A DNA stretch of 62,486 bases, taken from Actinomycetes bacterium (lineage in GTDB: Bacteria; Actinomycetota; Actinomycetes; Streptosporangiales; Streptosporangiaceae). Both the position numbers and the translations under genes were made by a program. Shown here in pieces: positions 21,718 to 33,518 of this stretch (position 1 is its first letter; every line of letters starts with the position of its first letter). The stretch is taken from NCBI GenBank assembly GCA_021793235.1, contig JAJYTD010000021.1, forward strand, positions 1-62,486, in the 5' to 3' direction. The notes below the pieces were generated by a model. The model had not been told where the DNA came from and did no database searches. It worked only from the letters and a program-made list of their open reading frames with translations.

Positions 21718-22680
21718 ATGGCGAACACGAGCGCGCGCATGCTACGGCTGCTGTCCCTACTCCAAACCCACCGGTACTGGCCCGGCGACGAACTCGCCAA
21801 CCGTCTGGACATAAGCCCGCGAACCCTGCGGCGCGACATCGAACGGCTACGCAACCTGGGCTACCCCGTCGACGCCAACCGCGGCGTCGCCGGAGGCTAC
21901 CAACTCCGCTCCGGAACGGCCATGCCACCGCTCCTGCTCGACGACGACGAAGCCGTCGCCATCGCCCTAGGACTGCGCAGCGCAGCCGGCGGCGCAGTGG
22001 ACGGCATCGAAGAGACCTCCGTGCGGGCCCTGGCCAAAATCGTCCACGTGATGCCGCCACGCCTCCGGCGGCGCGTGGACGCCCTGCGCACCCACACCCA
22101 ACCCGCCGTCCTGGCCGCAGGCCCCGCAGTCGACGCGGCCACCCTGATCATCATCGCCCAGACCTGCCGCGACACCGAACGGCTGCGCTTCTCCTACACC
22201 GCCCGCACCAAAGAACAGACCACACGCCTGGTGGAACCGCACCGGCTGGTATCCATGGGGCGCCGCTGGTACCTGGTCGCCTTCGACACCGACCGCGCCG
22301 CCTGGCGCACCTTCCGCATCGACCGGCTGCGCAACCCCCGCCCCACCGGCACCCGCTTCCCCCCGCGCGAACCACCCGGAGGCGACGCCGCCGCCTTCGT
22401 AAGCGCCCAGATCGACGCACTCCCCACGCGCTACCAGGTCACGGTCGACGTGCACGCACCACAAGACCAGATCGCACCAACCACCACACCACTGGGAGCA
22501 ACCGTGCAGGCCACAGGCCGGCAGTCCTGCCGGCTACGCATGAACACCGACGATCTGAACTGGCCGACCCTGGTCCTCGCGGCGCTGAAATCCGACTTCA
22601 CCGTCATCGAACCGCCCGAACTGCACGAGCACCTGCACACAGTGGCACAGCGATTCACCGCCGCCACCCGCACCCCCTGA
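21718..22680 (+). CDS. WYL-domain transcriptional regulator (YafY type)
   Basis: A 320-residue regulator. The N-terminal HTH_11 domain (LLSLLQTHRYWPGDELANRLDIS in part, then TLRRDIERLRNLGYPV) binds DNA. A WYL domain at about 135-210 carries RFSYTARTKEQTTRLVEPHRLV and GRRWYLVAFD. A C-terminal WCX extension follows. WYL proteins sense ligands such as nucleic acid or nucleotides and occur in CRISPR, phage-defence and DNA-damage regulation. The ATG lies 6 nt after a weak -10 (CATTGT) with no ribosome site, so it may be leaderless. It is divergent from the NTF2-like gene and opens the strand-skewed domain. Confidence 0.92.
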   Translation: MANTSARMLRLLSLLQTHRYWPGDELANRLDISPRTLRRDIERLRNLGYPVDANRGVAGGYQLRSGTAMPPLLLDDDEAVAIALGLRSAAGGAVDGIEETSVRALAKIVHVMPPRLRRRVDALRTHTQPAVLAAGPAVDAATLIIIAQTCRDTERLRFSYTARTKEQTTRLVEPHRLVSMGRRWYLVAFDTDRAAWRTFRIDRLRNPRPTGTRFPPREPPGGDAAAFVSAQIDALPTRYQVTVDVHAPQDQIAPTTTPLGATVQATGRQSCRLRMNTDDLNWPTLVLAALKSDFTVIEPPELHEHLHTVAQRFTAATRTP

Positions 22681-22811
22681 ACACCGCCCCGACCAACAAC
22701 CAACGCCCGCCTTGCCACAGAATCACCCGACCCCGCGATACGTGCGCTGCACCCTCCGATACGGCTGAATGAACACCACCCCCGTCATCAGCACCAACGT
22801 CGGAGGCAACC

Positions 22812-23798
22812 ATGCCAGCCAGCCACCGCACCCGGCCCGCCACCACCGCCATCACCGCCCTGGCCCTGGCCACCGCCACCACCGCCCCGGCCAACGCCCT
22901 GCCCACCGGCCCCGACACCGCCGACTACCCCGGCCACACCACCAGCAGCTACGTCCTACTCACCGACGACACCACCGACCGCGCAAGCGCCTACCAGTCC
23001 GGATGCGCCCACGCCGAAAGCGGCCGCAACGGACTGCGCATCCTGTTCTTCGGCACCCAGGAAGACAACGGCCGCCTGCGCCACCCCGGCACCACCGCCG
23101 CCGCAACAGGACAACGCACCGCCGCCGACCAGGCCGTGACCGTGGCCCGCGGCTGGGCCGAAGGCTTCACCGCCTGCCGCACCGACGACACCACCGCCCG
23201 ACTGGCCCTGGGCGTCAACAACAAATCCGACGGCGGCCTCACCGGCGCCACCGCGGGCAAGCAATGGGCCGCCATCGTCGACGAGGCCGCCGACCAGGCC
23301 GACACCACAGCCGTCACCATCACCGGAGCCGTCGACGCCGAACCCGGCTGGTCCGCCCCGCGCTGGGCCCGAGCCTGGGTGAAAGCCTTCACCTCCGCCA
23401 CCGACCGCACCCTCTATGCCGCCAACTCCGCCGACGGCTGCCCCGTCCACGGCTCGGCATCGACCTCCTGCAACAACGGATGGGACCTCGCCGACCTCCA
23501 CTACGTCGCCACCGGAGCAGCCCCCACCATCCGCGCCGTCCCCCAGATCTACCGCACCGACGGCATCCAGGCCCGCCAATGGGCGGCGATCAGCTCCTGG
23601 GGCGCCACGCACGGCAACGGCCCCGTCCGCTTCGCCGGATCGCTGTCCCAACACACCGCCTGCTCCCAACGCGGCGGCTGCCCCACCACCGACAACACCC
23701 CCGAAGCCGCCTGGACCCAACTGTGGAACGAACTCAACGCCCACCCCGAGACCCAGATCTCCGCACTGCCCTACGCCACCGACATGCGCTGGCCCTAA
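22812..23798 (+). CDS. Secreted protein of unknown function
   Basis: A 328-residue exported protein. An Arg-containing N-terminus and a hydrophobic run (TAITALALATATTAPANA) form a Sec-type signal peptide with cleavage near residue 28. The mature part has four or more Cys likely forming disulfides (SGCAHAE, FTACR, GCPVHG, STSCNN, TACSQRGGCP) and alternating strand-helix stretches such as LALGVNNKSDGG and VTITGAVDAEPGW, suggesting a TIM-barrel-like fold. I do not recognise a named family. GGAGG precedes the ATG. Codons are overwhelmingly C-ending, as elsewhere in this skewed domain. Confidence 0.75.
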   Translation: MPASHRTRPATTAITALALATATTAPANALPTGPDTADYPGHTTSSYVLLTDDTTDRASAYQSGCAHAESGRNGLRILFFGTQEDNGRLRHPGTTAAATGQRTAADQAVTVARGWAEGFTACRTDDTTARLALGVNNKSDGGLTGATAGKQWAAIVDEAADQADTTAVTITGAVDAEPGWSAPRWARAWVKAFTSATDRTLYAANSADGCPVHGSASTSCNNGWDLADLHYVATGAAPTIRAVPQIYRTDGIQARQWAAISSWGATHGNGPVRFAGSLSQHTACSQRGGCPTTDNTPEAAWTQLWNELNAHPETQISALPYATDMRWP

Positions 23799-24081
23799 CC
23801 GACACCCCGTAAACACCAAACGACACACCCGCCCCCGCGCGCGCCCCCGCCCACCGGCCGGCAACACACCCGCCACCACCCCCGATAAGATCAGTCGGGC
23901 CACCCGCTGCACCCCGCCCACGGCCCCACCCGCACCACCACCCACCTGGGCAGACACACCCCCGCACAGAGCCGGCCACACCGAAAAAAAGGGGGGCCTG
24001 ACACCACTGACCACCGCCCCCGCAGGCCAGCACAATGAAAGACCACACCCCCACAGCACCACCCCCGGGAAGGACCCCGAC

Positions 24082-25338
24082 ATGGCCCGCACCGACGACC
24101 ACCGCCACCGCGCGAGCAGACCCCACCTGCTCGCCTGGTCGCTGCTCCTGGTCGCCCACGCCGCCGCCGGGATCGCCCTGCTCGTCCTCTTCCTCATCGC
24201 CTGCCTGCTGTCCGCGGTCTGGGTCGGCCTGCCCCTCCTGGCCACCATCACCCAGCTCATCCGCGGCCTCGCCGCCACCCACCGCCGCCTCATCAGCCAA
24301 TTCTTCGACGACACCCCAATCACCAGCTCCTACCGCCCCCTGCCCCCCACCGGCCTCAGCACCCAAATCAGCACCATCCTCAACGACCCCACCACCTGGC
24401 GCGACTTCACCTGGCTCCTGGTCAACAGCACCGCAGGAATCACCATCGCCGCCCTCCCCAGCATCCTCCTCGCCCACAGCGCCCTCAGCATCCTCTACAC
24501 CCGGACCTGGCACCAGGGCACCAACTGGTACGCCCTGGGCCCCGTCCACGACCAGACCGACGCCAACCGCGCCCTCATCACCGCCGCCCTCCTCCTCCTG
24601 CTCTTTTGGACACTGACCCCCGCCATCCTCCGCAACTACGCCCGCCTGAACCGGTGGCTGCTGACCCCCACCGAAAAAGCCCGCCTGGCCGCCCGCGTCG
24701 CCCACCTGGCCACCTCACGCGCCGAAACCATCGACGCCCAAGCCTCCGAAGTCCGCCGCATCGAACGCGACCTGCACGACGGAGCCCAAGCCCGCCTGGT
24801 CGCCCTGGGCATGAACCTGGGCATGGCCGAGGAAATGCTCGCCAGCAACCCCGCCGCCGCACAGAAACTCCTCACCGAAGCCCGCGAAACCACCCGCCAA
24901 GCCCTCACCGAACTACGCGACCTCGTCCGCGGAATCCACCCCCCCGTACTGGTGGAACGCGGCCTCGACGGAGCCGTACGCGCCCTGGCCGTCTCCCAGC
25001 ACCTGCCCATCACCGTCGACATCGACCTACCCGGCCGCCCCGCCGACCCGGTCGAATCAGCCGCCTACTTCGCCATCGTCGAAACCCTCACCAACGCAGC
25101 CAAACACGCCAACGCCACCCGAGCCTGGGTACGCATCAACCACGGCCGCGAACGCATGATCATCATCGTCGGCGACGACGGCCACGGCGGCGCCGACCTG
25201 TCCAAAGGCACCGGCCTGGACGGCATCCGACGCCGACTGGCCGCATTCGATGGGACAATGAACATCGTCAGCCCGACAGGCGGTCCCACAATCGTCACCA
25301 TGGAGCTCCCGTGCAGCATCACCCCTAAACACACATAA
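24082..25338 (+). CDS. Sensor histidine kinase of NarL/HisKA_3 type
   Basis: A 418-residue membrane kinase. The first 70 residues have a pair of hydrophobic helices (LLVAHAAAGIALLVLFLIA), followed by two more near 120-140 and 175-190. The HisKA_3 dimerisation/phosphoacceptor motif ERDLHDGAQARL places the phosphorylated residue at His232. The HATPase_c domain follows with ETLTNAAKHANA (N box), GDDGHGGAD (G1) and GTGLDGIRRR (G2). It should phosphorylate a NarL-type regulator; one is encoded 1.7 kb downstream at 27046, beyond an inserted MerR segment. GGAAGGA precedes the ATG. The signal is unknown. Confidence 0.93.
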   Translation: MARTDDHRHRASRPHLLAWSLLLVAHAAAGIALLVLFLIACLLSAVWVGLPLLATITQLIRGLAATHRRLISQFFDDTPITSSYRPLPPTGLSTQISTILNDPTTWRDFTWLLVNSTAGITIAALPSILLAHSALSILYTRTWHQGTNWYALGPVHDQTDANRALITAALLLLLFWTLTPAILRNYARLNRWLLTPTEKARLAARVAHLATSRAETIDAQASEVRRIERDLHDGAQARLVALGMNLGMAEEMLASNPAAAQKLLTEARETTRQALTELRDLVRGIHPPVLVERGLDGAVRALAVSQHLPITVDIDLPGRPADPVESAAYFAIVETLTNAAKHANATRAWVRINHGRERMIIIVGDDGHGGADLSKGTGLDGIRRRLAAFDGTMNIVSPTGGPTIVTMELPCSITPKHT

Positions 25339-25356
25339 CTACATACCGGCACCGCT

Positions 25357-25608
25357 ATGTCCCCGAAGGACGGCGCAGACGCCCGTGTGGAACGCGGACG
25401 CAAAGCAACATCCGCGTCTCGCCCCGGACACAACAAAGGCCCCACCTCCTCCCCTGAACAGCACGAGCCGACCAGGGACCTACCTGCCCGGCGTGCGAGC
25501 ACGCCGCGCCGCTGCCGCCGCTGGTACTGCCGCCACACCCGGAACGCCCCGGCCACCCTGACATCCCCGGTGTGCCCGCACTGCTCCACCCCGACCCGTC
25601 CCCGGTGA
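25357..25608 (+). CDS. Possible small zinc-ribbon-like protein
   Basis: An 83-residue frame starting 18 nt after the kinase stop. The C-terminus, WYCRHTRNAPATLTSPVCPHC, has a Cys-x-His and a Cys-x-x-Cys that could bind zinc; the rest is polar and low-complexity. No ribosome site is visible. It ends 4 nt before the left 38-bp direct repeat. It may be a real small gene, or a remnant disturbed by the neighbouring insertion. Confidence 0.35.
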   Translation: MSPKDGADARVERGRKATSASRPGHNKGPTSSPEQHEPTRDLPARRASTPRRCRRWYCRHTRNAPATLTSPVCPHCSTPTRPR

Positions 25609-25612
25609 GCGG

Positions 25613-25650
25613 GTCACGGCTCTACCGCCAAATCCTGTAGCACTCCTCCT
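25613..25650 (+). repeat. Left copy of a 38-bp direct repeat
   Basis: Begins GTCACGGCTCTACCGC and matches 26803-26840 at 34 of 38 positions by eye. The two copies are 1190 bp apart and flank the MerR gene. They may be target duplications, element ends or a recombination site. Confidence 0.8.
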
Positions 25651-25725
25651 CGACCCCCAGGACACCCTGCGTCTTCCTGGAGCCACAGGTCATCCGACGT
25701 GCCTATACACCGGTGTAGGGGCAGG

Positions 25726-26736
25726 TCAGGACTGAGGGGCCGGGGCACGCAGGGCCGCCGCGATCCAGGAGAGGTAGGGCACCGGATCATCCTCTTCAGG
25801 CGCGTTTCCGTTGATCACGGCCACCAGGGACAGGTACCGGCCGTGCGTGTCGTCGAAGCGAACGTTCCCGGCCGCGTACGGGCCGTCCTCCTCGCTCATG
25901 AACTCTTCTGCGTGAAGGAAGGCGGTAGCCAGCCGATCGCGGTATTCCGCGGTGGCTTGACCACCGGAGAGCGCGGCGGTCGCCTCGACAAAGCGCGCGA
26001 CGACCTCCTGGACCCGCGGGGACCGGGCCGGTTCCCCGGCGTGGTAGGCGGCGATGAGCTCCTCCCCGATCCGGGCGCCGGTGGTGTGGATGAAGTCCTG
26101 CACCGACTCGCTCGCGATGTACTGCCCCTGCGCCGTGGAGTAGAGCTCTTGCAGGTAAGCGCGGACCGCGTCACCAAACCCCTGGTCGCGCAGCAGGTCG
26201 GCCAGCTCGATCCACGCCTCGAGCTGGGCGGACGTAGGGTCCTGGGGCAGGCGCGGCCGCATCGTGCGCAACCGGTCCACGAAGCCGTCTGGCACGTCCA
26301 GGCCCTGGCCCACCTCGTTCCAGAAGTCATCGACGACCTGTTCGCGCTCTTCGTCGGACATCGACACGAGCCGGTGCATCAAGTCCGCCTGCGCGGTCGT
26401 GCCTCCCTGCTTGATCAGCGCTCTCAGTACCGCCTGTCGGGCCCGCAGGACATGCTCTTGATGCTCGACCACCTCCAAGTGCGTGGTGAGCAGGTCGTGC
26501 AGGGTCGTTCCGCCCTCAAGCAGCCGTCGGATCTCGTCCAGGCCCGTGTCCAGGTCCCGCAGGGTGCGGACGAGTTCCAGCCGGGCGATGGCGTGGACGT
26601 CGTAGAGGCGGTGGCCCGCCTCGGTCGTGCCCGTGGGTTCGATGACCCCGGCATCAGAGTAGAACCGGACGGTGCTGACGCTCAGACCGCTCCGGCGCGC
26701 GGCGTCTCCGATGGAGTACAGCTCTTCATCGTGCAT
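25726..26736 (-). CDS. MerR-family regulator with TipAS-type C-terminal domain
   Basis: A 336-residue MerR regulator. The winged HTH (YSIGDAARRSGLSVSTVRFYSDAGVI, given in part) lies at the N-terminus, followed by the coiled dimerisation helix (ARLELVRTLRDLDTGLDEIRR). The C-terminal 230 residues are helical and resemble TipAS-like ligand-binding regions of MerR activators; the exact ligand is unknown. Its own promoter has a 19-bp spacer with a perfect dyad, typical of MerR autoregulation. It lies on the strand opposite to the kinase and response regulator, is flanked by 38-bp direct repeats and does not share the strand skew of its surroundings, so it looks inserted. Confidence 0.9.
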   Translation of the reverse strand: MHDEELYSIGDAARRSGLSVSTVRFYSDAGVIEPTGTTEAGHRLYDVHAIARLELVRTLRDLDTGLDEIRRLLEGGTTLHDLLTTHLEVVEHQEHVLRARQAVLRALIKQGGTTAQADLMHRLVSMSDEEREQVVDDFWNEVGQGLDVPDGFVDRLRTMRPRLPQDPTSAQLEAWIELADLLRDQGFGDAVRAYLQELYSTAQGQYIASESVQDFIHTTGARIGEELIAAYHAGEPARSPRVQEVVARFVEATAALSGGQATAEYRDRLATAFLHAEEFMSEEDGPYAAGNVRFDDTHGRYLSLVAVINGNAPEEDDPVPYLSWIAAALRAPAPQS

Positions 26737-26742
26737 GGGACC

Positions 26743-26773
26743 ACTATGGGACCTCAAGCGACTTGAGGTTCAA
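26743..26773 (-). promoter_or_regulatory. MerR-type promoter with 19-bp spacer and operator dyad
   Basis: On the minus strand, TTGAAC (-35, 26773-26768) and CATAGT (-10, 26748-26743) are 19 bp apart. Between them lies the dyad ACCTCAAG-N3-CTTGAGGT (26751-26769). The over-long spacer with a central dyad is the hallmark of MerR-regulated promoters. Confidence 0.75.
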
Positions 26774-26802
26774 GCCTGTGCGGCGGCCAGGTAGGAGCGC
26801 AC

Positions 26803-26840
26803 GTCACGGCTCTACCGCTCAATCCTGTAGCAATCCTCCC
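26803..26840 (+). repeat. Right copy of the 38-bp direct repeat
   Basis: Partner of 25613-25650 with four mismatches, same orientation. Together they bound a 1.15-kb segment containing only the MerR gene. About 60 nt further right, CCTGACATCCCC recurs as it does upstream of the left copy, so the duplication may extend beyond the 38 bp in a more eroded form. Confidence 0.8.
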
Positions 26841-27045
26841 CCTTCTCAAATGGCCGCGCAGGCCCCGGCCGGCGAAGGCGACGGCAAGGCACTCGGCCCT
26901 GACATCCCCAGATCTGGCTAAACCTGTCAACGACGCGCCCGCCCGGTCCGGACGAGCGCTGCGCCGGGGCTGCGAAACCGGGAAATCCCTCTACACTCCA
27001 TGGCACACCCCTCCCCCGCGAACGCCATCATTAAGGAAACCCGCC
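26841..27045. other. Leader/promoter of the response regulator
   Basis: No gene is seen. With the MerR promoter and the repeat it makes up the 309-nt gap before the response regulator. It probably contains the promoter now used by the response regulator if the segment separated it from the kinase transcript. Confidence 0.35.
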
Positions 27046-27690
27046 GTGCGCGTTGTCATCGCCGAAGACCTCGCCCTCCTCCGCGACGGACTGATCCGGC
27101 TGCTGCAAGCCCACGAATTCACCGTCGTCGCCGCCGTGGCAAGCGGCCCCGAACTACTCACAGCCCTCCTGGAGCACCGGCCCGACGTCGCCGTGGTCGA
27201 CGTACGGCTCCCCCCCACCTTCACCGACGAAGGACTCCAAGCCGCCATCGAAGCCCGCCGCAACGTCCCCGGACTGCCCATCCTCGTCCTGTCCCAGCAC
27301 GTCGAACAGCTCTACGCCCGCGAACTCCTCTCCGACGACGGCGGCGCCGTAGGCTACATGCTCAAAGACCGCGTCTTCGACATCGGCCAGTTCATCGACG
27401 CCGTACGCCGCGTGGCCTCCGGCGGCACCGCCATGGACCCCGCCGTCATCTCCCAACTGCTGGCCAAACACGGCGAAGCCGGCCCGCTGGCATCCCTGAC
27501 CCCGCGCGAACGCGAAGTACTGGCGGAAATGGCCGAAGGGCGCTCCAACTCCGCCATCGCCAGCCGCCTGTTCATCACCGAAAAAGCAGTCAGCAAACAC
27601 ATCAACAACATCTTCACCAAGCTGGACCTGCCGCCCTCCACCGACGACAGCCGCCGGGTCCTGGCCGTACTGGCCTACCTCAACCAGTAA
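27046..27690 (+). CDS. NarL/FixJ-type response regulator
   Basis: A 214-residue response regulator. The receiver domain (1-125) shows the acidic pair in VVIAEDLALL, the phosphoacceptor Asp52 in VVDVRLPP, a Ser/Thr position in LVLSQHV and the switch Lys in GYMLKDR. The LuxR-type DNA-binding domain (150-210) has LTPREREVLAEMAEGRSN and ITEKAVSKHINNIF. The GTG start follows AAGGA. It is the natural partner of the kinase at 24082-25338: same strand, matching families and the same C-ending codon style, but separated by the MerR segment. Confidence 0.93.
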   Translation: MRVVIAEDLALLRDGLIRLLQAHEFTVVAAVASGPELLTALLEHRPDVAVVDVRLPPTFTDEGLQAAIEARRNVPGLPILVLSQHVEQLYARELLSDDGGAVGYMLKDRVFDIGQFIDAVRRVASGGTAMDPAVISQLLAKHGEAGPLASLTPREREVLAEMAEGRSNSAIASRLFITEKAVSKHINNIFTKLDLPPSTDDSRRVLAVLAYLNQ

Positions 27691-27834
27691 CGCACCCAAC
27701 GGTGCCGGCGCGTGGACGGTCCGCGCCGGCACCAACCGCCCGCGAAGCGGACTGTCGGCCCGTTACCCCCACAGCGCCGACTTAACCCCCACATCCACCA
27801 CCCGGCCGAATCCGGCCGCGCCCCGCAACAGCGA

Positions 27835-29727
27835 TCAATCGCGCTGCCCAGCCTCAAAATCCCGATAAAGACCGTCGATCTCCTCAGAAAAAGCACGCAG
27901 AATCACATCCCGGCGCAACTCACCCGAGGCCAGCACCAAACCGCTCTGCACCGTCAACTCATCAGCCAACACATGGAAAGCACGCACCGCCCACTCCGCC
28001 GGCACCGCCGCATTGGCCTCCTGCACAGCCGCCTGAATCTCACCGAGCAGATCAGGATCGGCCGCCAACTCCTCCCGCGACATCGCCAGCGGACGGTTGT
28101 TCACCAACCGCCAATACTCCACCTGGTCGGACACAAGAGTGATCAACGCGCTGGCATAGGGACGCCCCTCACTGATCACCATCACCTGACTCACCAACGG
28201 ATGGGACAGCAACCGCCGCTCGATGGCCTCCGCATGATCCACACCCGCCGCCCCCTCAGCGACCGACGCCACCACATCCGGAGGCCGATACACCCACGGA
28301 CGAGGCTGGGGCGCAGCCAACGCAGCAGCCAGACTGGCCTGCGGACGCAACCGCCGCTCCACCTGCAGATACCCCTCACCATCCATGGCCCCCGCATAAC
28401 CGGTAGCCAACCACCCATCGCGAAACGCAGCCTGAGTGGCCCCAGGATCGTTCCAATACCCGGGAAAAACCCCGGGCCCGCGCACGTGAACCTCACCATC
28501 GCGCGACAACCGCACCTCCGCCCCCGGCAAAGGCCGCCCACAGCTACCGGCACGACGCTCACCAGGAGCATTGGCAGTAACCGCCCCGCCCGTCTCCACC
28601 GTGCCAAACATCTGGAAAACAGGCATCCCCACACCGCTGTAGAAACGATCCATACGCTCCGACAACAGCCTGCCCGCACACACGATCACCTCAACACGCC
28701 CGCCCAACGCCTCACGGATCCGCGCATACATCCACTCATACATCGCCCGCGACATCCGCCGCCACGCCCCCTTGCGCTCGGCCTTGTCGAACTCGACCGC
28801 CAGATCAGTAGCGGCATTGTAGGAGTTGAGATTGTCCCAACTGGTATCACGCGCCCGCCTCTTCTCCCGCGCGTGCACCGCCTCCAACAGCCGCGGCAAC
28901 GCCACCAGCACCGTAGGGCGAAACTCCCGCAGCTCACGCAGCACGACACCACCGGGCGGCAGCAACCCCACACGCACCTGCGCCATCATGCACGCCACCA
29001 GCGCCGCATGGCCGTAGGACTCCCCCAACGGCAGATACATCAACGTGGCGGCCTTCCCCTTCTCCCACCGCTGCAACGCCGGAGCCAGACGCTCACACAC
29101 CCCCTCAGCCGCGGCCAGGTAATTGCCATGAGTGAGCACAGCCCCACGGGTACGCACAACAGTGCTCACCGGATAGACGATGGCAGCCGGATCCTCACGC
29201 CGGGCCTCCTCACGGCGGAACCGCACAGCGGTGGAGTCCATATAGGCACCAGGCCGACAAATAGCCTCCATCCCCCCCTCGTCCAACCGCCAGATCCGCG
29301 CCAGATCCGTCAACTCATGCTGCATCGCCCCCACAGTCGCCGCGTGACCGCCGTCCTCCAGAACAATGGCGGCAGGCCGACAATCGCGCACGATGTGCTG
29401 CAACCGCTCCGCCGAACACGCCGGAGGCACCGGCACCACCACCGCACGCACCATCCAGACAGCGAACGCGATCAGCACCCACTCATAACGAGTCCCGCAC
29501 ACCACAACCACGCGGTCGCCGACCCCGACCCCCGCGGCAATCAACCCCTTGGCAGCCGAGGCCACATCACTGACGAACTCCGCCGAGGTCACATCCTCCC
29601 ACTCGCCCCCGGCACCCTTACGGGAAAGAACAGCAACGCGCGGTTCGGCAGCGTTGCGATAAGCGAGGTCTCCCAGCCCCTTGAGCTCCCGGACCTGCGC
29701 CGCCGAAGCCGACCGAGACTGTCGCAT
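27835..29727 (-). CDS. AMP-binding (acyl-CoA synthetase-like) protein with lost catalytic motifs
   Basis: A 630-residue protein collinear with long-chain fatty acyl-CoA synthetases (FadD15-like): N-terminal FVSDVASAAKGLIAAGVGVGDRV (in part), a middle region with YLPLGESYGH and a C-terminal subdomain. The family's essential motifs are damaged. The phosphate loop (SGTTGxPKG) reads YPVSTVVRTRGAVLTH at 185-200, the TETS motif reads FGTVETGG, the ribose-binding Asp of TGD is Tyr (WLATGYAG), and the catalytic C-terminal Lys is Glu (ASGELRR). The frame itself is intact over 630 codons, so it seems to be kept as a non-catalytic protein. GGAGGAGAAGG precedes the ATG. It is not in an obvious operon. 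Confidence 0.85.
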   Translation of the reverse strand: MRQSRSASAAQVRELKGLGDLAYRNAAEPRVAVLSRKGAGGEWEDVTSAEFVSDVASAAKGLIAAGVGVGDRVVVVCGTRYEWVLIAFAVWMVRAVVVPVPPACSAERLQHIVRDCRPAAIVLEDGGHAATVGAMQHELTDLARIWRLDEGGMEAICRPGAYMDSTAVRFRREEARREDPAAIVYPVSTVVRTRGAVLTHGNYLAAAEGVCERLAPALQRWEKGKAATLMYLPLGESYGHAALVACMMAQVRVGLLPPGGVVLRELREFRPTVLVALPRLLEAVHAREKRRARDTSWDNLNSYNAATDLAVEFDKAERKGAWRRMSRAMYEWMYARIREALGGRVEVIVCAGRLLSERMDRFYSGVGMPVFQMFGTVETGGAVTANAPGERRAGSCGRPLPGAEVRLSRDGEVHVRGPGVFPGYWNDPGATQAAFRDGWLATGYAGAMDGEGYLQVERRLRPQASLAAALAAPQPRPWVYRPPDVVASVAEGAAGVDHAEAIERRLLSHPLVSQVMVISEGRPYASALITLVSDQVEYWRLVNNRPLAMSREELAADPDLLGEIQAAVQEANAAVPAEWAVRAFHVLADELTVQSGLVLASGELRRDVILRAFSEEIDGLYRDFEAGQRD

Positions 29728-29988
29728 GCCCGCCTTCTCCTCCACACCGACCAAGGCGCCCCTCCAGGCACGCCCCCGAATTTCTTCACGCTTCACGCAA
29801 GTGTGCCCTACTGTGCACGGTCCCCTCACCCCACAGCAAGCCACACAATCCAGCAAAACTGACTAAACATACGACAACACCGGAAATTCCTCCACAACAC
29901 CCCAGAAAATCACCAAATACGCACCCCCCATCACACCCCGCCACCAACCACCCCCAAACCAATCCACCTATCACACGACCATCCGACC

Positions 29989-31248
29989 TCACCGAGCACT
30001 ACCCGCCACCCAACGCGCCACCCCAGCAAATACCACCACCGCCAAACCCCCCGCCACCACCATCACCACCGCCATACTCACCAAACTCGCCTCCCCCGAA
30101 GCCGTCATCCCCGCCAACGACGCCACACCACCACCCAACGCGAACTGCATCGCCCCCATCAACGCCGACGCCGTCCCCGCCACCGCCGACACCTGACTAG
30201 AAATCGCCAACGTCGTCGCATTCGGAAAAACAAAACCCACACTGAACATCATCACAAAGAACACCGACGTCAACGCCACCAACGCGCCCCCACCCGACAC
30301 CCCCGCCAGCGCCATCCCGCCCAGCACCAGCACCGCCACCAACGCACCAGCCAACCCCGCAGCCAACCGCCGCGACGCCTCCACCCGCCCGATCAGAAAA
30401 CCATTCACCTGCGTCCCGAGAATCAACCCCACCGTATTGACCGCAAAAATCACACTGAACTGCTGAGCCGAAGCCCCGAAACCCTCCTGCGAAACAAACG
30501 AGAACGAAGAAATGTAAGTGAACATCATCCCGAAACTCAACCCCAGCGTCAGCGCCGGCCCCATAAACCGCACATCCCGCAACAACCCCCACACCCGCAC
30601 CGCCAACCCCACCGCATTCATCGGCCGCCGCTCACTTCGCGGCAGACTCTCCGGCAACACGAAGAACACCACCACAAAACTCACCGCCGAAACACCGCCC
30701 AACACCAAGAAACTCAACTGCCACGGCCCCAGCAACAGCAGCTGCCCACCCAAAACCGGACCCAGCAACGGCGCCAACCCCGTCACCAGAATCAGCCGCG
30801 AGAAAAACCGCGCCGCATCATCACCCTCATACAAATCACGCACCACAGCACGCGAAATCACCGCCCCCGCAGCACCAGCCGCCCCCTGCACAAACCGCAA
30901 CACCACAAACCACACCGCCGACGGCACCCACATGCACAGCAACGACGCCACCGTGAACACCGCCACCCCGACCAGCAGCGGTCCTCGCCGACCCCACGCA
31001 TCACTCATCGGCCCGACGACCAACTGCCCCACCGCCAACCCCAACATGGCCGCGGTCAACGTCAACTGAATCCGCGCCTGCGACGCCCCCAAATCAGCAG
31101 CGATCTGCGGAAAAGCCGGCAGATACAGATCCGTCGCCAACGGCCCCGTCGCCGTCAGCATCCCCAACACCAGCACCATCACCAACAACGGCCGACGGCG
31201 CACCGAAGCCCCACCAGACACCGACGAAGACAAGCGACTCGCGGTCAC
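29989..31248 (-). CDS. Bcr/CflA-type MFS drug exporter
   Basis: A 419-residue major facilitator with 12 predicted hydrophobic segments. Signature elements are TDLYLPAFPQIAADLG after helix 1, GPMSDAWGRRGPLL (the loop 2-3 motif A) and ILVTGLAPLLGPVLGG in helix 5 (motif C, antiporter subfamily). This is the Bcr/CflA family, which exports drugs such as bicyclomycin or chloramphenicol with proton antiport. The substrate is unknown. The GTG start is chosen by the family's N-terminal length. Codons are strongly G- and T-ending (TTG, GTG, GGT), unlike other minus-strand genes outside this domain. Confidence 0.93.
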   Translation of the reverse strand: MTASRLSSSVSGGASVRRRPLLVMVLVLGMLTATGPLATDLYLPAFPQIAADLGASQARIQLTLTAAMLGLAVGQLVVGPMSDAWGRRGPLLVGVAVFTVASLLCMWVPSAVWFVVLRFVQGAAGAAGAVISRAVVRDLYEGDDAARFFSRLILVTGLAPLLGPVLGGQLLLLGPWQLSFLVLGGVSAVSFVVVFFVLPESLPRSERRPMNAVGLAVRVWGLLRDVRFMGPALTLGLSFGMMFTYISSFSFVSQEGFGASAQQFSVIFAVNTVGLILGTQVNGFLIGRVEASRRLAAGLAGALVAVLVLGGMALAGVSGGGALVALTSVFFVMMFSVGFVFPNATTLAISSQVSAVAGTASALMGAMQFALGGGVASLAGMTASGEASLVSMAVVMVVAGGLAVVVFAGVARWVAGSAR

Positions 31249-31376
31249 GCACCGACTCCATTCGCCTCAACACCAGAAAACAGCGCCACCCACAGCACCG
31301 TCACCCATCCCAACATCCCACCACCCCACCCCTATCCACCCAACCCCACCACCCACGTGACATCAGTTACCCCCGA

Positions 31377-31757
31377 TCACCGCACCAACGACGCCACCAA
31401 CCACTCCAACTCCGCCTCAGGATCAGCCGTCAACCCCGTATGCACCGGCCCCGGCTGCACAATCGTGCTCCGCGGAGCCGTCAACCACCGAAACCGCCGC
31501 CCCGCATCCTCACCACCCGCAACCCCCGCATCCTCCCCACCACGACACACCAACTCCACCGCCTCCAATGCCCGCTCCACACCCACCACATCCACCCCCG
31601 CATCCAACGCCCGCAACCGCCCAACATCCAGCGCACACCGCGCCGCCAGAAACGACCGCGCCTTGCAGTAAACGATCACCCCCGCATTGACCCGCTCCCC
31701 GCGCTCCACCCGCGGCACCACCCGCACCACGGCATACTCGAACACCTCACGCTTCAC
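31377..31757 (-). CDS. DUF3037 protein, partner of the HipA-like kinase
   Basis: A 126-residue DUF3037 protein. REVFEYAVVRVVPRVERGERVNAGVIVYC (shown in part) is the typical N-terminus, and the C-terminus ends AELEWLVASLV. The family has no known activity but commonly follows a HipA-like gene. Its GTG overlaps the TGA of that gene (GTGA), so the two are translationally coupled and probably function together. The GTG at 31757 is chosen for the overlap. Confidence 0.85.
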   Translation of the reverse strand: MKREVFEYAVVRVVPRVERGERVNAGVIVYCKARSFLAARCALDVGRLRALDAGVDVVGVERALEAVELVCRGGEDAGVAGGEDAGRRFRWLTAPRSTIVQPGPVHTGLTADPEAELEWLVASLVR

Positions 31758-32521
31758 CGCGGCACCTCCGGCAACCACACACGATCACCCGCACGCGCCA
31801 GTAAATGCCCCACATAAGCCTCGCGCACCTCCCCCACCGACCCGAACCCCGGCTCGTCCACCAACCACTCATCAGGCACCAACCCCACCACCTCCCGCAG
31901 CAAATCAGCCGTGATCAGCGGCGCCAACTCCGCATCCGCCGCCACCAGATCAGGCCCCGCCGACACCAACACATGGTCAGAGGCGTCATAGGCCCGCCTT
32001 ACCGCAGCCTTTGCACTCGGCCAATTGTGGTGAAAGATCAACGTCGCCCCATGATCGATCAAATACGGCTGCTCATGCCACACCAGCATGTTCGGATTAC
32101 GCCACGTCCGATCCACATTCCCAACAAAGGCATCGAACCACAGCACACGTCCGGCCAACCCCGAATCCACATGGCACACCAGCGGATCGAACGACAGCGC
32201 CCCCGGCAGGTAATCCATCCCCAGATTCAACCCGCCACTGCTCTTCAGCAGCTCCTGCACCTCCGGATCCGGCTCCCCCCGACCGATCACCGCATCGAAA
32301 TGCACCAACGCCAACACCGGCACCGGCAACCCCAGACGCCGCCCCAACTCCCCCGACACCACCTCGGCAATCAGCGTCTTGCGCCCCTGCCCCGCCCCCA
32401 CGAACTTCACCACGTACATACCGAGGTCATCAGTCTCCACCAACCCGGGCAACGAACCGCCCTCACGCAACGGCAGCACATACCGGGTCGCCACTACCTC
32501 TTCCAACACGCCGATCAGCAT
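31754..32521 (-). CDS. Compact HipA-like kinase
   Basis: A 255-residue kinase-fold protein related to the HipA C-terminal domain, without the N-terminal HipA domain. Visible are YVVKFVGAGQGRKTLIAEVVSGELGRRLGL (in part; the nucleotide-binding Lys), the catalytic loop WFDAFVGNVDRTWRNPNML (cf. DxxxxNxDR) and the metal-binding YLIDHGATL. HipA kinases phosphorylate tRNA synthetases and cause growth arrest; small HipA_C-only proteins are less understood. It is coupled to DUF3037 downstream and divergent from a nucleotidyltransferase gene only 30 nt away. GGAGGG lies upstream of the ATG. Confidence 0.85.
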   Translation of the reverse strand: MLIGVLEEVVATRYVLPLREGGSLPGLVETDDLGMYVVKFVGAGQGRKTLIAEVVSGELGRRLGLPVPVLALVHFDAVIGRGEPDPEVQELLKSSGGLNLGMDYLPGALSFDPLVCHVDSGLAGRVLWFDAFVGNVDRTWRNPNMLVWHEQPYLIDHGATLIFHHNWPSAKAAVRRAYDASDHVLVSAGPDLVAADAELAPLITADLLREVVGLVPDEWLVDEPGFGSVGEVREAYVGHLLARAGDRVWLPEVPR

Positions 32522-32551
32522 AGAGCCACAGCCCTCCGATACGTTGCCTCC

Positions 32552-33322
32552 ATGCGGTTCAGCGACCAGGAATTCACCGACCACATCGTCCAGACACTCG
32601 CCGAACTCAACGGAGTCGAAGCCGTCGCCCTCGGCGGATCCCGCGCCACCGGCACCCACACCCCCGACAGCGACTGGGACTTCGCCATCTACTACCGCCA
32701 CCGGTTCAACCCCGACGACCTTCGCGCCCTCGGCTGGGACGGAGAAGTCTCCGACATCGGAGCCTGGGGAGGCGGCGTCTTCAACGGAGGCGCCTGGCTC
32801 ACCGTCGACGGCCGCCATATCGACATCCACTACCGCGACCTCGACGACGTCGAATACCGCCTCGACGAAGCCCGCAAAGGCCGGTTCAACGTCGAACTCC
32901 TCCCCTTCCACCTCGCCGGCATCCCCACCTACATCGTCGTCGCCGAACTCGCCATCAACGACGTCCTGCACGGCGACCTGCCCCGCCCGGGCTACCCCGA
33001 CGCTCTGAGCCGCAACGCCCCTGCCCAATGGCGGGCAATAGCCGACATGACCCTCCAGTACGCCCGCGCGGCTCATGCCGAACACGGCCACCTCACCGAA
33101 ACCGCCGGCGCCATCGCCACCGCCGCCGCCCAGTACGCCCACGCCATCCTGGCCGCCCGCCGCACCTGGATCACCAACGAGAAACGGCTCCTCGACAACG
33201 CCGAGCTCCGCGGCATCGACACCATCCTCGCCGGCCTCGACACCGAACCCGTCACCCTCATGGCCGCCGTAGACGCCGCTTCCCACCTTCTGGCTACCGC
33301 CGTCGACCAAACCCAGAGCTGA
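32552..33322 (+). CDS. Nucleotidyltransferase-domain protein (MNT/aminoglycoside type)
   Basis: A 256-residue protein with an N-terminal nucleotidyltransferase domain: ALGGSRATGTHTPDSDWDF carries the GS motif and the two metal Asp, and GRHIDIHYRDLDD gives the third acidic residue. A helical C-terminal part (AAAQYAHAILAARRTW) follows. The layout resembles aminoglycoside adenylyltransferases and MNT proteins of HEPN/MNT pairs. It is divergent from the HipA-like gene with overlapping promoter space, so the three genes may form one unit. C-ending codons mark it as the last gene of the skewed domain. Confidence 0.85.
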   Translation: MRFSDQEFTDHIVQTLAELNGVEAVALGGSRATGTHTPDSDWDFAIYYRHRFNPDDLRALGWDGEVSDIGAWGGGVFNGGAWLTVDGRHIDIHYRDLDDVEYRLDEARKGRFNVELLPFHLAGIPTYIVVAELAINDVLHGDLPRPGYPDALSRNAPAQWRAIADMTLQYARAAHAEHGHLTETAGAIATAAAQYAHAILAARRTWITNEKRLLDNAELRGIDTILAGLDTEPVTLMAAVDAASHLLATAVDQTQS

Positions 33323-33426
33323 ACCTCGCAGATCGTGTGCGGCTTCCCAGAGAAAGCTGTTTTTGATCCCGGGTGCGGCGTAGCCGCTCTTCAGGTTTCT
33401 ATGCTGTACTTTAAAAAATCGCCACC

Positions 33427-33448
33427 TTTACGATGTAGATTTCTATTT
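33427..33448 (+). promoter_or_regulatory. AT-rich promoter motif upstream of the methyltransferase leader
   Basis: CTTTACGATGTAGATTTC, about 330 nt before the methyltransferase. It matches CTTTACATTGTAGATTC upstream of the erm gene and is followed in both places by ATTTTG. TAGATT is a plausible -10 box. A run TTTAAAAAAT lies 15 nt upstream, an AT-rich patch reminiscent of WhiB7-type promoters. Confidence 0.6.
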
Positions 33449-33473
33449 TGCTTTGCGGCCCGATCTGCCTAAC

Positions 33474-33518
33474 GGAGCCCCGAGTTCCTCGGCTCGCGGC
33501 TGCCACCTCGGGGGCTCC
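33474..33518 (+). promoter_or_regulatory. Leader hairpin (possible attenuator)
   Basis: Arms GGAGCCCCGAG and CTCGGGGGCTCC pair with one bulged G around a 22-nt loop. It lies about 30 nt after the putative transcription start in the methyltransferase leader. Confidence 0.55.

Follow-up and report, generated by a model that had tools for sequence, protein, structure and literature searches.

A self-contained MerR-family regulator gene, bordered by orphan Tn3-family transposon ends, has very likely been acquired between a sensor histidine kinase gene and a NarL-type response regulator gene that adjoin each other in relatives. The locus lies in a 62,486-nucleotide stretch of DNA, hereafter the window, and its features are collected in Table 1. 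In this explanation, a MerR gene with its own MerR-type promoter would have been inserted between neighbouring kinase and regulator genes, and the two orphan terminal repeats would mark the insert; judged by comparison, their source would be a Tn3-family group circulating in Nocardiopsis and related genera.

Table 1. Features between and including the kinase and regulator genes (window coordinates; a dot marks an unstranded feature; paired skew values are GC/AT).
Feature	Position	Strand	Basis or remark
Sensor histidine kinase	24082..25338	+	Pfam Sensor, HisKA_3, HATPase_c; native partner 1
Left spacer	25339..25600	.	strongly skewed as surroundings; skew -0.27/+0.29
83-aa frame in left spacer	25357-25608	+	no recognised homologs
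Copy 1, full 38-bp Tn3-family terminal repeat	25621..25658	+	position by script; model match
3' flank of MerR gene, with imperfect palindrome 25696-25727	25659..25725	-	repeat search
MerR-family regulator, 336 aa from ATG, weak TipAS-like C-terminus	25726..26736	-	Pfam, homologs
MerR gene promoter (predicted)	26743..26773	-	TTGAAC, 19-bp spacer, CATAGT; read from sequence
Copy 2, inner 29 bp of the 38-bp terminal repeat	26811..26839	+	model match; orientation as copy 1
Right spacer	26840..27045	.	skew -0.19/+0.32 for 26849-27045
NarL-type response regulator	27046..27690	+	Pfam Response_reg, GerE; native partner 2

The kinase-regulator pair and the gene between its partners

The sequence-only reading had proposed that a kinase and a regulator, natural partners separated by about 1.7 kb, form a former operon into which a MerR gene was inserted. 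The Pfam domains agree with both identities, and 1,707 bp separate the kinase stop from the regulator start. For the comparison of orthologous loci, 40 related loci were used: the 29 best other loci from 61 family genomes searched (50 with a match at E <= 1e-60) and 11 more from 341 genomes searched (19 at E <= 1e-150, the own genome included). The regulator follows the kinase on one strand in all 40 loci, the lower-ranked of which have kinases 42-50% identical and may be paralogous pairs, and no MerR match lies between the two genes in any of them. The genes overlap in 30 of the 40 loci and are 2-144 bp apart in the other 10; in the closer relatives with an overlap, the GTG start of the regulator falls within the terminal part of the kinase gene. 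The partnership is thus upheld, and so is the insertion between former neighbours, given the uninterrupted, MerR-free pairs and the identification of the repeats as Tn3-family ends. The opposite case, in which the relatives all carry the MerR gene in between without repeats, was seen in no examined relative.

Whether the two genes had already been separated, as in the Streptomonospora group (genus group g30, taken to be Streptomonospora), so that the insert landed in an existing spacer, is evenly balanced; this order of events is compatible with the other readings of the locus. The six g30 loci have gaps of 49-144 bp in which no transposon end was found, the pair is also unlinked, by 2-128 bp, in four other loci (L090, L092, L106, L112), and the right spacer scored slightly above shuffles against the g30 spacers in three of six comparisons (1, 3 and 3 of 200 shuffles reach the score), 12 regulator bases being included. 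However, the right spacer fails for the other three, and the two genes overlap in G055, the nearest pair. The left spacer was dropped as a relative of the g30 spacers, being no closer to them than shuffles. As g30 is unlinked without an end and the tree leaves the branching order of the window, G055 and g30 unsettled, the insert may have arrived after the pair had come apart and need not have broken the operon itself.

The MerR protein has a clear MerR_1 domain (62.1 bits against a curated cut-off of 21.6), whereas TipAS reached 20.8 bits, under its cut-off of 23.8. Consequently, the earlier description of a MerR-TipA-like gene on the opposite strand holds for MerR and not for TipA. The predicted promoter follows the 19-bp spacer rule of MerR promoters, and the spacer between TTGAAC and CATAGT contains the dyad CCTCAAG-TCG-CTTGAGG, which presumably resembles the SoxR operator. 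The half-sites of this dyad recur upstream of MerR homologs, exactly in the set pattern in 9 of 14 and as near variants found by eye in the other five. The protein would probably bind the dyad in its own promoter and control itself. The MerR helix-turn-helix, the dyad between -35 and -10 and the 19-bp spacer are common to TipA-like and SoxR-like regulators; unlike these, the window has a TipAS match below cut-off and no neighbouring target gene in the insert.

Of 99 other family genomes, 12 contain MerR homologs that are 63-72% identical over nearly their whole length. The closest is found in G055, which also holds the nearest kinase-regulator pair, and therefore the gene may, by its similarity, have been acquired from within the lineage. 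When neighbouring frames were screened out to at most 1.5 kb in 13 homologous loci, some of which are truncated at a contig end, the MerR gene alone was found in common. No transposon end was found in the flanking DNA examined, up to 1.5 kb on each side, of the homologs L115-L142; only a second homolog in G053 (61%) has a weak transposon end (28.8 bits) 38 bp after the gene.

AAGGAA, as read from the sequence, precedes the regulator start GTG; no sigma-70 consensus promoter was found in the right spacer, which is the probable promoter and ribosome-binding region of the regulator. Because both frames are intact and the regulator keeps its ribosome-binding region, the pair probably still works. 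The 83-aa frame has no Pfam family, no plasmid match and only a self-match in the 24 sequences searched, and was dropped as cargo or recombinase relic for want of a homolog. A terminator after the MerR gene is unproven, as the palindrome has a predicted fold that is not unusual (z = -1.36).

The MerR gene was also said to lack the local strand skew, and this was confirmed: GC skew is -0.34 in the kinase gene, 0.00 in the MerR stretch (25661-26736) and -0.24 in the regulator gene. The unskewed stretch spans from copy 1 to copy 2, on the outside of copy 1 and the inside of copy 2, and is probably recent. The skewed block covers only about 22.0-33.5 kb of the window, and 29% of equal-length stretches over the whole window have a GC skew at least as high as the cassette; therefore, the lack of skew tells only against the neighbours. 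Of the claim of three independent signs of insertion, the signs themselves stand but their full independence does not, since repeats and skew break mark the same insert.

The strand asymmetry is extreme in blocks of this genome and confined to them, being seen in genes of either strand. In 1-kb tiles of window 22000-33500 and of contig C1:28000-46000, GC skew goes to -0.49 and AT skew to +0.60, and in the kinase, regulator, acyl-CoA synthetase and MFS genes T makes up no more than about 1% of third codon positions on the + strand. Among 200 2-kb tiles from 20 sampled 20-kb stretches of the own genome, four had an absolute GC skew of at least 0.2 with opposite AT skew, three of them in C1. All three transposon ends found in the own genome sit in such skewed blocks. 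A comparable skew of the kinase gene was seen in g21, g8, g54 and four of six g30 loci, and was absent in g9, G055 and g23.

The repeats and their Tn3-family relatives

The direct repeats, first placed at 25613 and 26803 with 34 of 38 letters identical, are right by eye, and BLAST gives 34/37. A degenerate repeat pattern with up to 3 mismatches, scanned in the window and in 100 shuffles, gave two matches in the window and none in the shuffles. We used a 53-bp end model built from 26 copies. Copy 1, itself among these sources, matches it with 60.9 bits (E 4.8e-18); its outer end (CCCCC) is on the right, facing the MerR gene, and the similarity extends inward to about 25601. Copy 2, which is outside the sources and lacks the outer 9 bp, matches positions 3-42 of 53 with 41.2 bits (E 7.2e-12) and is similar inward to 26803. 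By sequence comparison, the repeats are in origin the terminal inverted repeats of a Tn3-family transposon, here directly oriented. As both point right, they do not form the end pair of an ordinary transposon, and the script found no inverted partner end in the left spacer, the middle or the right spacer.

The letters CCGTGC at the outer junctions (25309-25314 and 27044-27049) look like a target duplication, but no 5-bp duplication can be assigned from them, since a conserved, ancestral gene overlap can leave similar letters, which also occur at g30 loci without any transposon end. Several other assignments were dropped. A third degenerate copy near 26974-27011, before the regulator, was a likeness by eye whose score 114 of 500 shuffles reach. 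The window contains no tRNA or tmRNA and gave no Rfam match at gathering cut-offs, so that the repeat was dropped as any of these RNAs. The repeat presumably resembles an ISL3-family end; this identity was abandoned on the inverted ends, Tn3 transposase and 5-bp duplications of the three elements described below.

The contig pattern scan returned 11 stretches with the repeat, ten from Nocardiopsis and one from Streptomonospora. The repeat lies directly 3' of an apparent tyrosine recombinase C-terminus in eight records (L039, L040, L071, L074, L079, L081, L082 and L083); protein alignment confirmed this C-terminus in L039, L040, L079, L082 and L083 and showed the arrangement in L186 and L190 as well. 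The 75-bp profile match starts at the end of the tyrosine recombinase gene in L039, L040, L082, L083, L186, L190 and L198, and, in L186, L187, L190, L197 and L198, 37-46 bp upstream of the point where the tnpA alignment begins. From ten outward-facing end pairs, eight were put through the script and seven were evaluated, one being not evaluable. Three of the seven showed 38-bp ends paired at 36/38 together with exact 5-bp duplications: L186 (6,814 bp, ATCAC), L187 (6,777 bp, CAACA) and L198 (4,388 bp, ATGAC). In the other four, allowing a shift of one base at the ends, no exact duplication was seen. The elements are partly decayed, with the transposase aligning in several frames in L186 and L187 and only in its N-terminal part in L198.

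Pfam assigned DDE_Tnp_Tn3 in L187 and L082, DUF4158 (N-terminal to it in Tn3 transposase) in L190, and Phage_integrase (PF00589) in L186 and L190. The transposase of L082 has no such end directly beside it; it belongs to NF033527 and matches the Tn4430 TnpA of PDB at about 1e-104. A serine Resolvase domain was found in L187 (3395-3946) and L191 (3576-3959), where others hold the tyrosine recombinase, and L187 has no match to that tyrosine recombinase; one recombinase type for all these elements was accordingly discarded. Judged by these domains, the ends come from a Tn3-family group in which the recombinase is of the tyrosine type in some members and of the serine type in others. L187 and L191 are cases of resolvase exchange within one group of Tn3 ends.

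The account of Tn4556 of Streptomyces in PMC6403206 gives 38-bp ends, 5-bp duplications, tnpA and a PF00589 resolvase, the same kinds of parts as in the related elements, which are likened here by description and not by repeat letters. In that account the Tn4556 resolvase lies on the strand opposite tnpA, from start 6419 to stop 5445 of 6,625 bp, and reads inward, whereas the recombinase of L186 and L190 reads outward and stops at the terminal repeat. L187 differs from the tyrosine resolvase of Tn4556 and of Tn4430 (with TnpI) by its serine resolvase domain, although it has the same ends as L186 and L190; the resolvase types of the Tn3 family are treated in PMC7157771. The window differs from both transposons in having two same-direction ends and no transposition gene. 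The full 38-bp terminal repeat is present in copy 1, and the same ends pair in the three relatives' elements, while inverted ends and a cognate tnpA are missing at the locus, the sole Tn3 transposase found in the draft genome being 26% identical.

With strict filters, by which weak copies may be lost and some of the weakest matches may be chance, the end model gave 133 matches in 62 of 337 family genomes and 21 of 68 genera. Only five of 20 end-bearing genomes tested have a tnpA match at E <= 1e-100; many ends therefore look like relics. No paper in the collection searched brings Nocardiopsis together with Tn3, transposase and inverted repeat, which does not show that the group is undescribed.

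Two further structures were noted. A three-gene element (tyrosine recombinase, HTH_26 protein and a protein without Pfam family) occurs in L082 8440-11317, L043 8831-11706 and L201 3254-4840, decayed in the last. In all three records it starts, in the same orientation, at the same base inside a transposon end, after AATCCTCC or an equivalent; copy 2 of the window and the ends in L041 and L200 break at that same base, with other sequence following. The element may target Tn3 ends; a clean right border was not found. Additionally, L047 1394-2665 (Nocardiopsis G045, contig C474) has direct ends about 1.2 kb apart around a single Rce1-like protease gene, the second end being weak.

Possible origins of the two direct ends

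The acquisition of the MerR gene can be explained in more than one way. Serial transposon insertions and deletions would leave a picture like the observed one: two unrelated solo ends from separate Tn3-family events, in a common orientation by chance, with the MerR gene carried by one of them. This version of the explanation has about an even chance. Neighbouring ends separated by less than 15 kb make 22 pairs, of which 10 face outward, 4 face inward and 8 are direct; once the three proven elements are removed, the ratio of outward to direct to inward becomes 7:8:4 and does not clearly depart from the 1:2:1 expected for independent orientation, and so serial events are at least as likely as the uptake of a circle. 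The missing tnpA match in 15 of the 20 end-bearing genomes, with ends that look like relics, points the same way. However, the lack of skew extends over the whole distance between copy 1 and copy 2, which is the pattern that a single insert delimited by both ends would give.

We tentatively consider a 1.19-kb circle, consisting of one end and the MerR gene, which would have recombined with a solo end resident between kinase and regulator; this is possible but rather less probable than serial events. A single crossover would yield the order native - end 1 - MerR - end 2 - native, the two ends pointing the same way; the observed order, together with these skew states, matches what circle uptake would produce. 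It is doubtful whether this extends to a general process, in which orphan 38-bp Tn3 ends would be capture sites and circles of an end plus a gene would recombine with a resident end, no transposase being at the site. An excess of direct pairs was rejected as a sign of such a cassette system, as 8 direct of 22 fit independent orientation. If it were true, single genes would spread as units bounded by direct repeats, and the two cases would be the window (period 1,190 bp, MerR) and Nocardiopsis G045 C474 (about 1.2 kb, Rce1-like protease, second end weak).

It is very unlikely that the repeats are integron-like attachment sites of a tyrosine recombinase around a site-specific cassette, although direct repeats flank the MerR gene and the repeat elsewhere comes after a tyrosine recombinase gene. 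In the three elements, copies of the repeat stand at both ends in inverted orientation, flanked by 5-bp duplications and enclosing a whole or partial Tn3 transposase; on these grounds the attachment-site reading was dropped. Moreover, one of the three, L187, carries a serine resolvase domain and did not match the tyrosine recombinase, the own genome lacks a close match to that recombinase, and Tn4556, in the account of PMC6403206, also pairs tnpA with a PF00589 resolvase.

It is likewise very unlikely that the MerR gene travelled as part of a TIME-COMP, a composite of two directly oriented miniature elements derived from Tn3: PMC13367494 and PMC4133298 describe such non-autonomous, gene-carrying units bounded by Tn3-family ends, with direct orientation and 5-bp (once 6-bp) duplications, but a TIME consists of two inverted ends, whereas the window has a single end per side, no inverted partner on either flank and no assignable outer duplication. 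A TIME in the left spacer was rejected on the same absence of an inverted partner end.

Ends in the own genome and meaning of the insert

The search for the repeat elsewhere in the own draft genome (119 contigs) gave three copies, the third at C1:41010-41065, so it is not widespread intergenic sequence. The recombinase C-terminus has no match in this genome at E <= 1e-10. One Tn3-family transposase was found (C104:194-1816, L195), near a contig end; it is 24-26% identical to those near the repeat and has no recognised transposon end. With a draft of 119 contigs, the absence of a transposase is not final. Even so, the ends of the own genome look orphaned from what the contigs hold, and as no close transposase or recombinase was found, the module can probably move only if a cognate transposase is supplied from outside.

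The third end borders an unskewed gene for a CGNR zinc-finger regulator and a partly skewed hydrolase gene, a dip of skew inside a strongly skewed block. In G045, relatives of these genes (78 and 84%) are found on the outer side of an end, at a distance of about 1.8 kb. This fits ends that mark acquired genes at two places of the own genome; movement of genes with the ends is unproven. In L052 3010-7620 (C1), the third end is followed within 4.6 kb by the CGNR regulator, the hydrolase, an alcohol dehydrogenase-like frame seen by eye and a tyrosine recombinase about 3.6 kb from the end, XerC-like below cut-off and 32% identical to that of L082. This stretch is possibly an acquired island.

The comparison describes a group of Tn3-family ends spread over Nocardiopsis, the Streptomonospora group and relatives, many of them seemingly orphans. 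The locus shows a way for a regulator gene to enter a signalling gene pair with the frames of both partners unbroken, and such an insertion is betrayed by two marks, the transposon ends and the local loss of strand skew.
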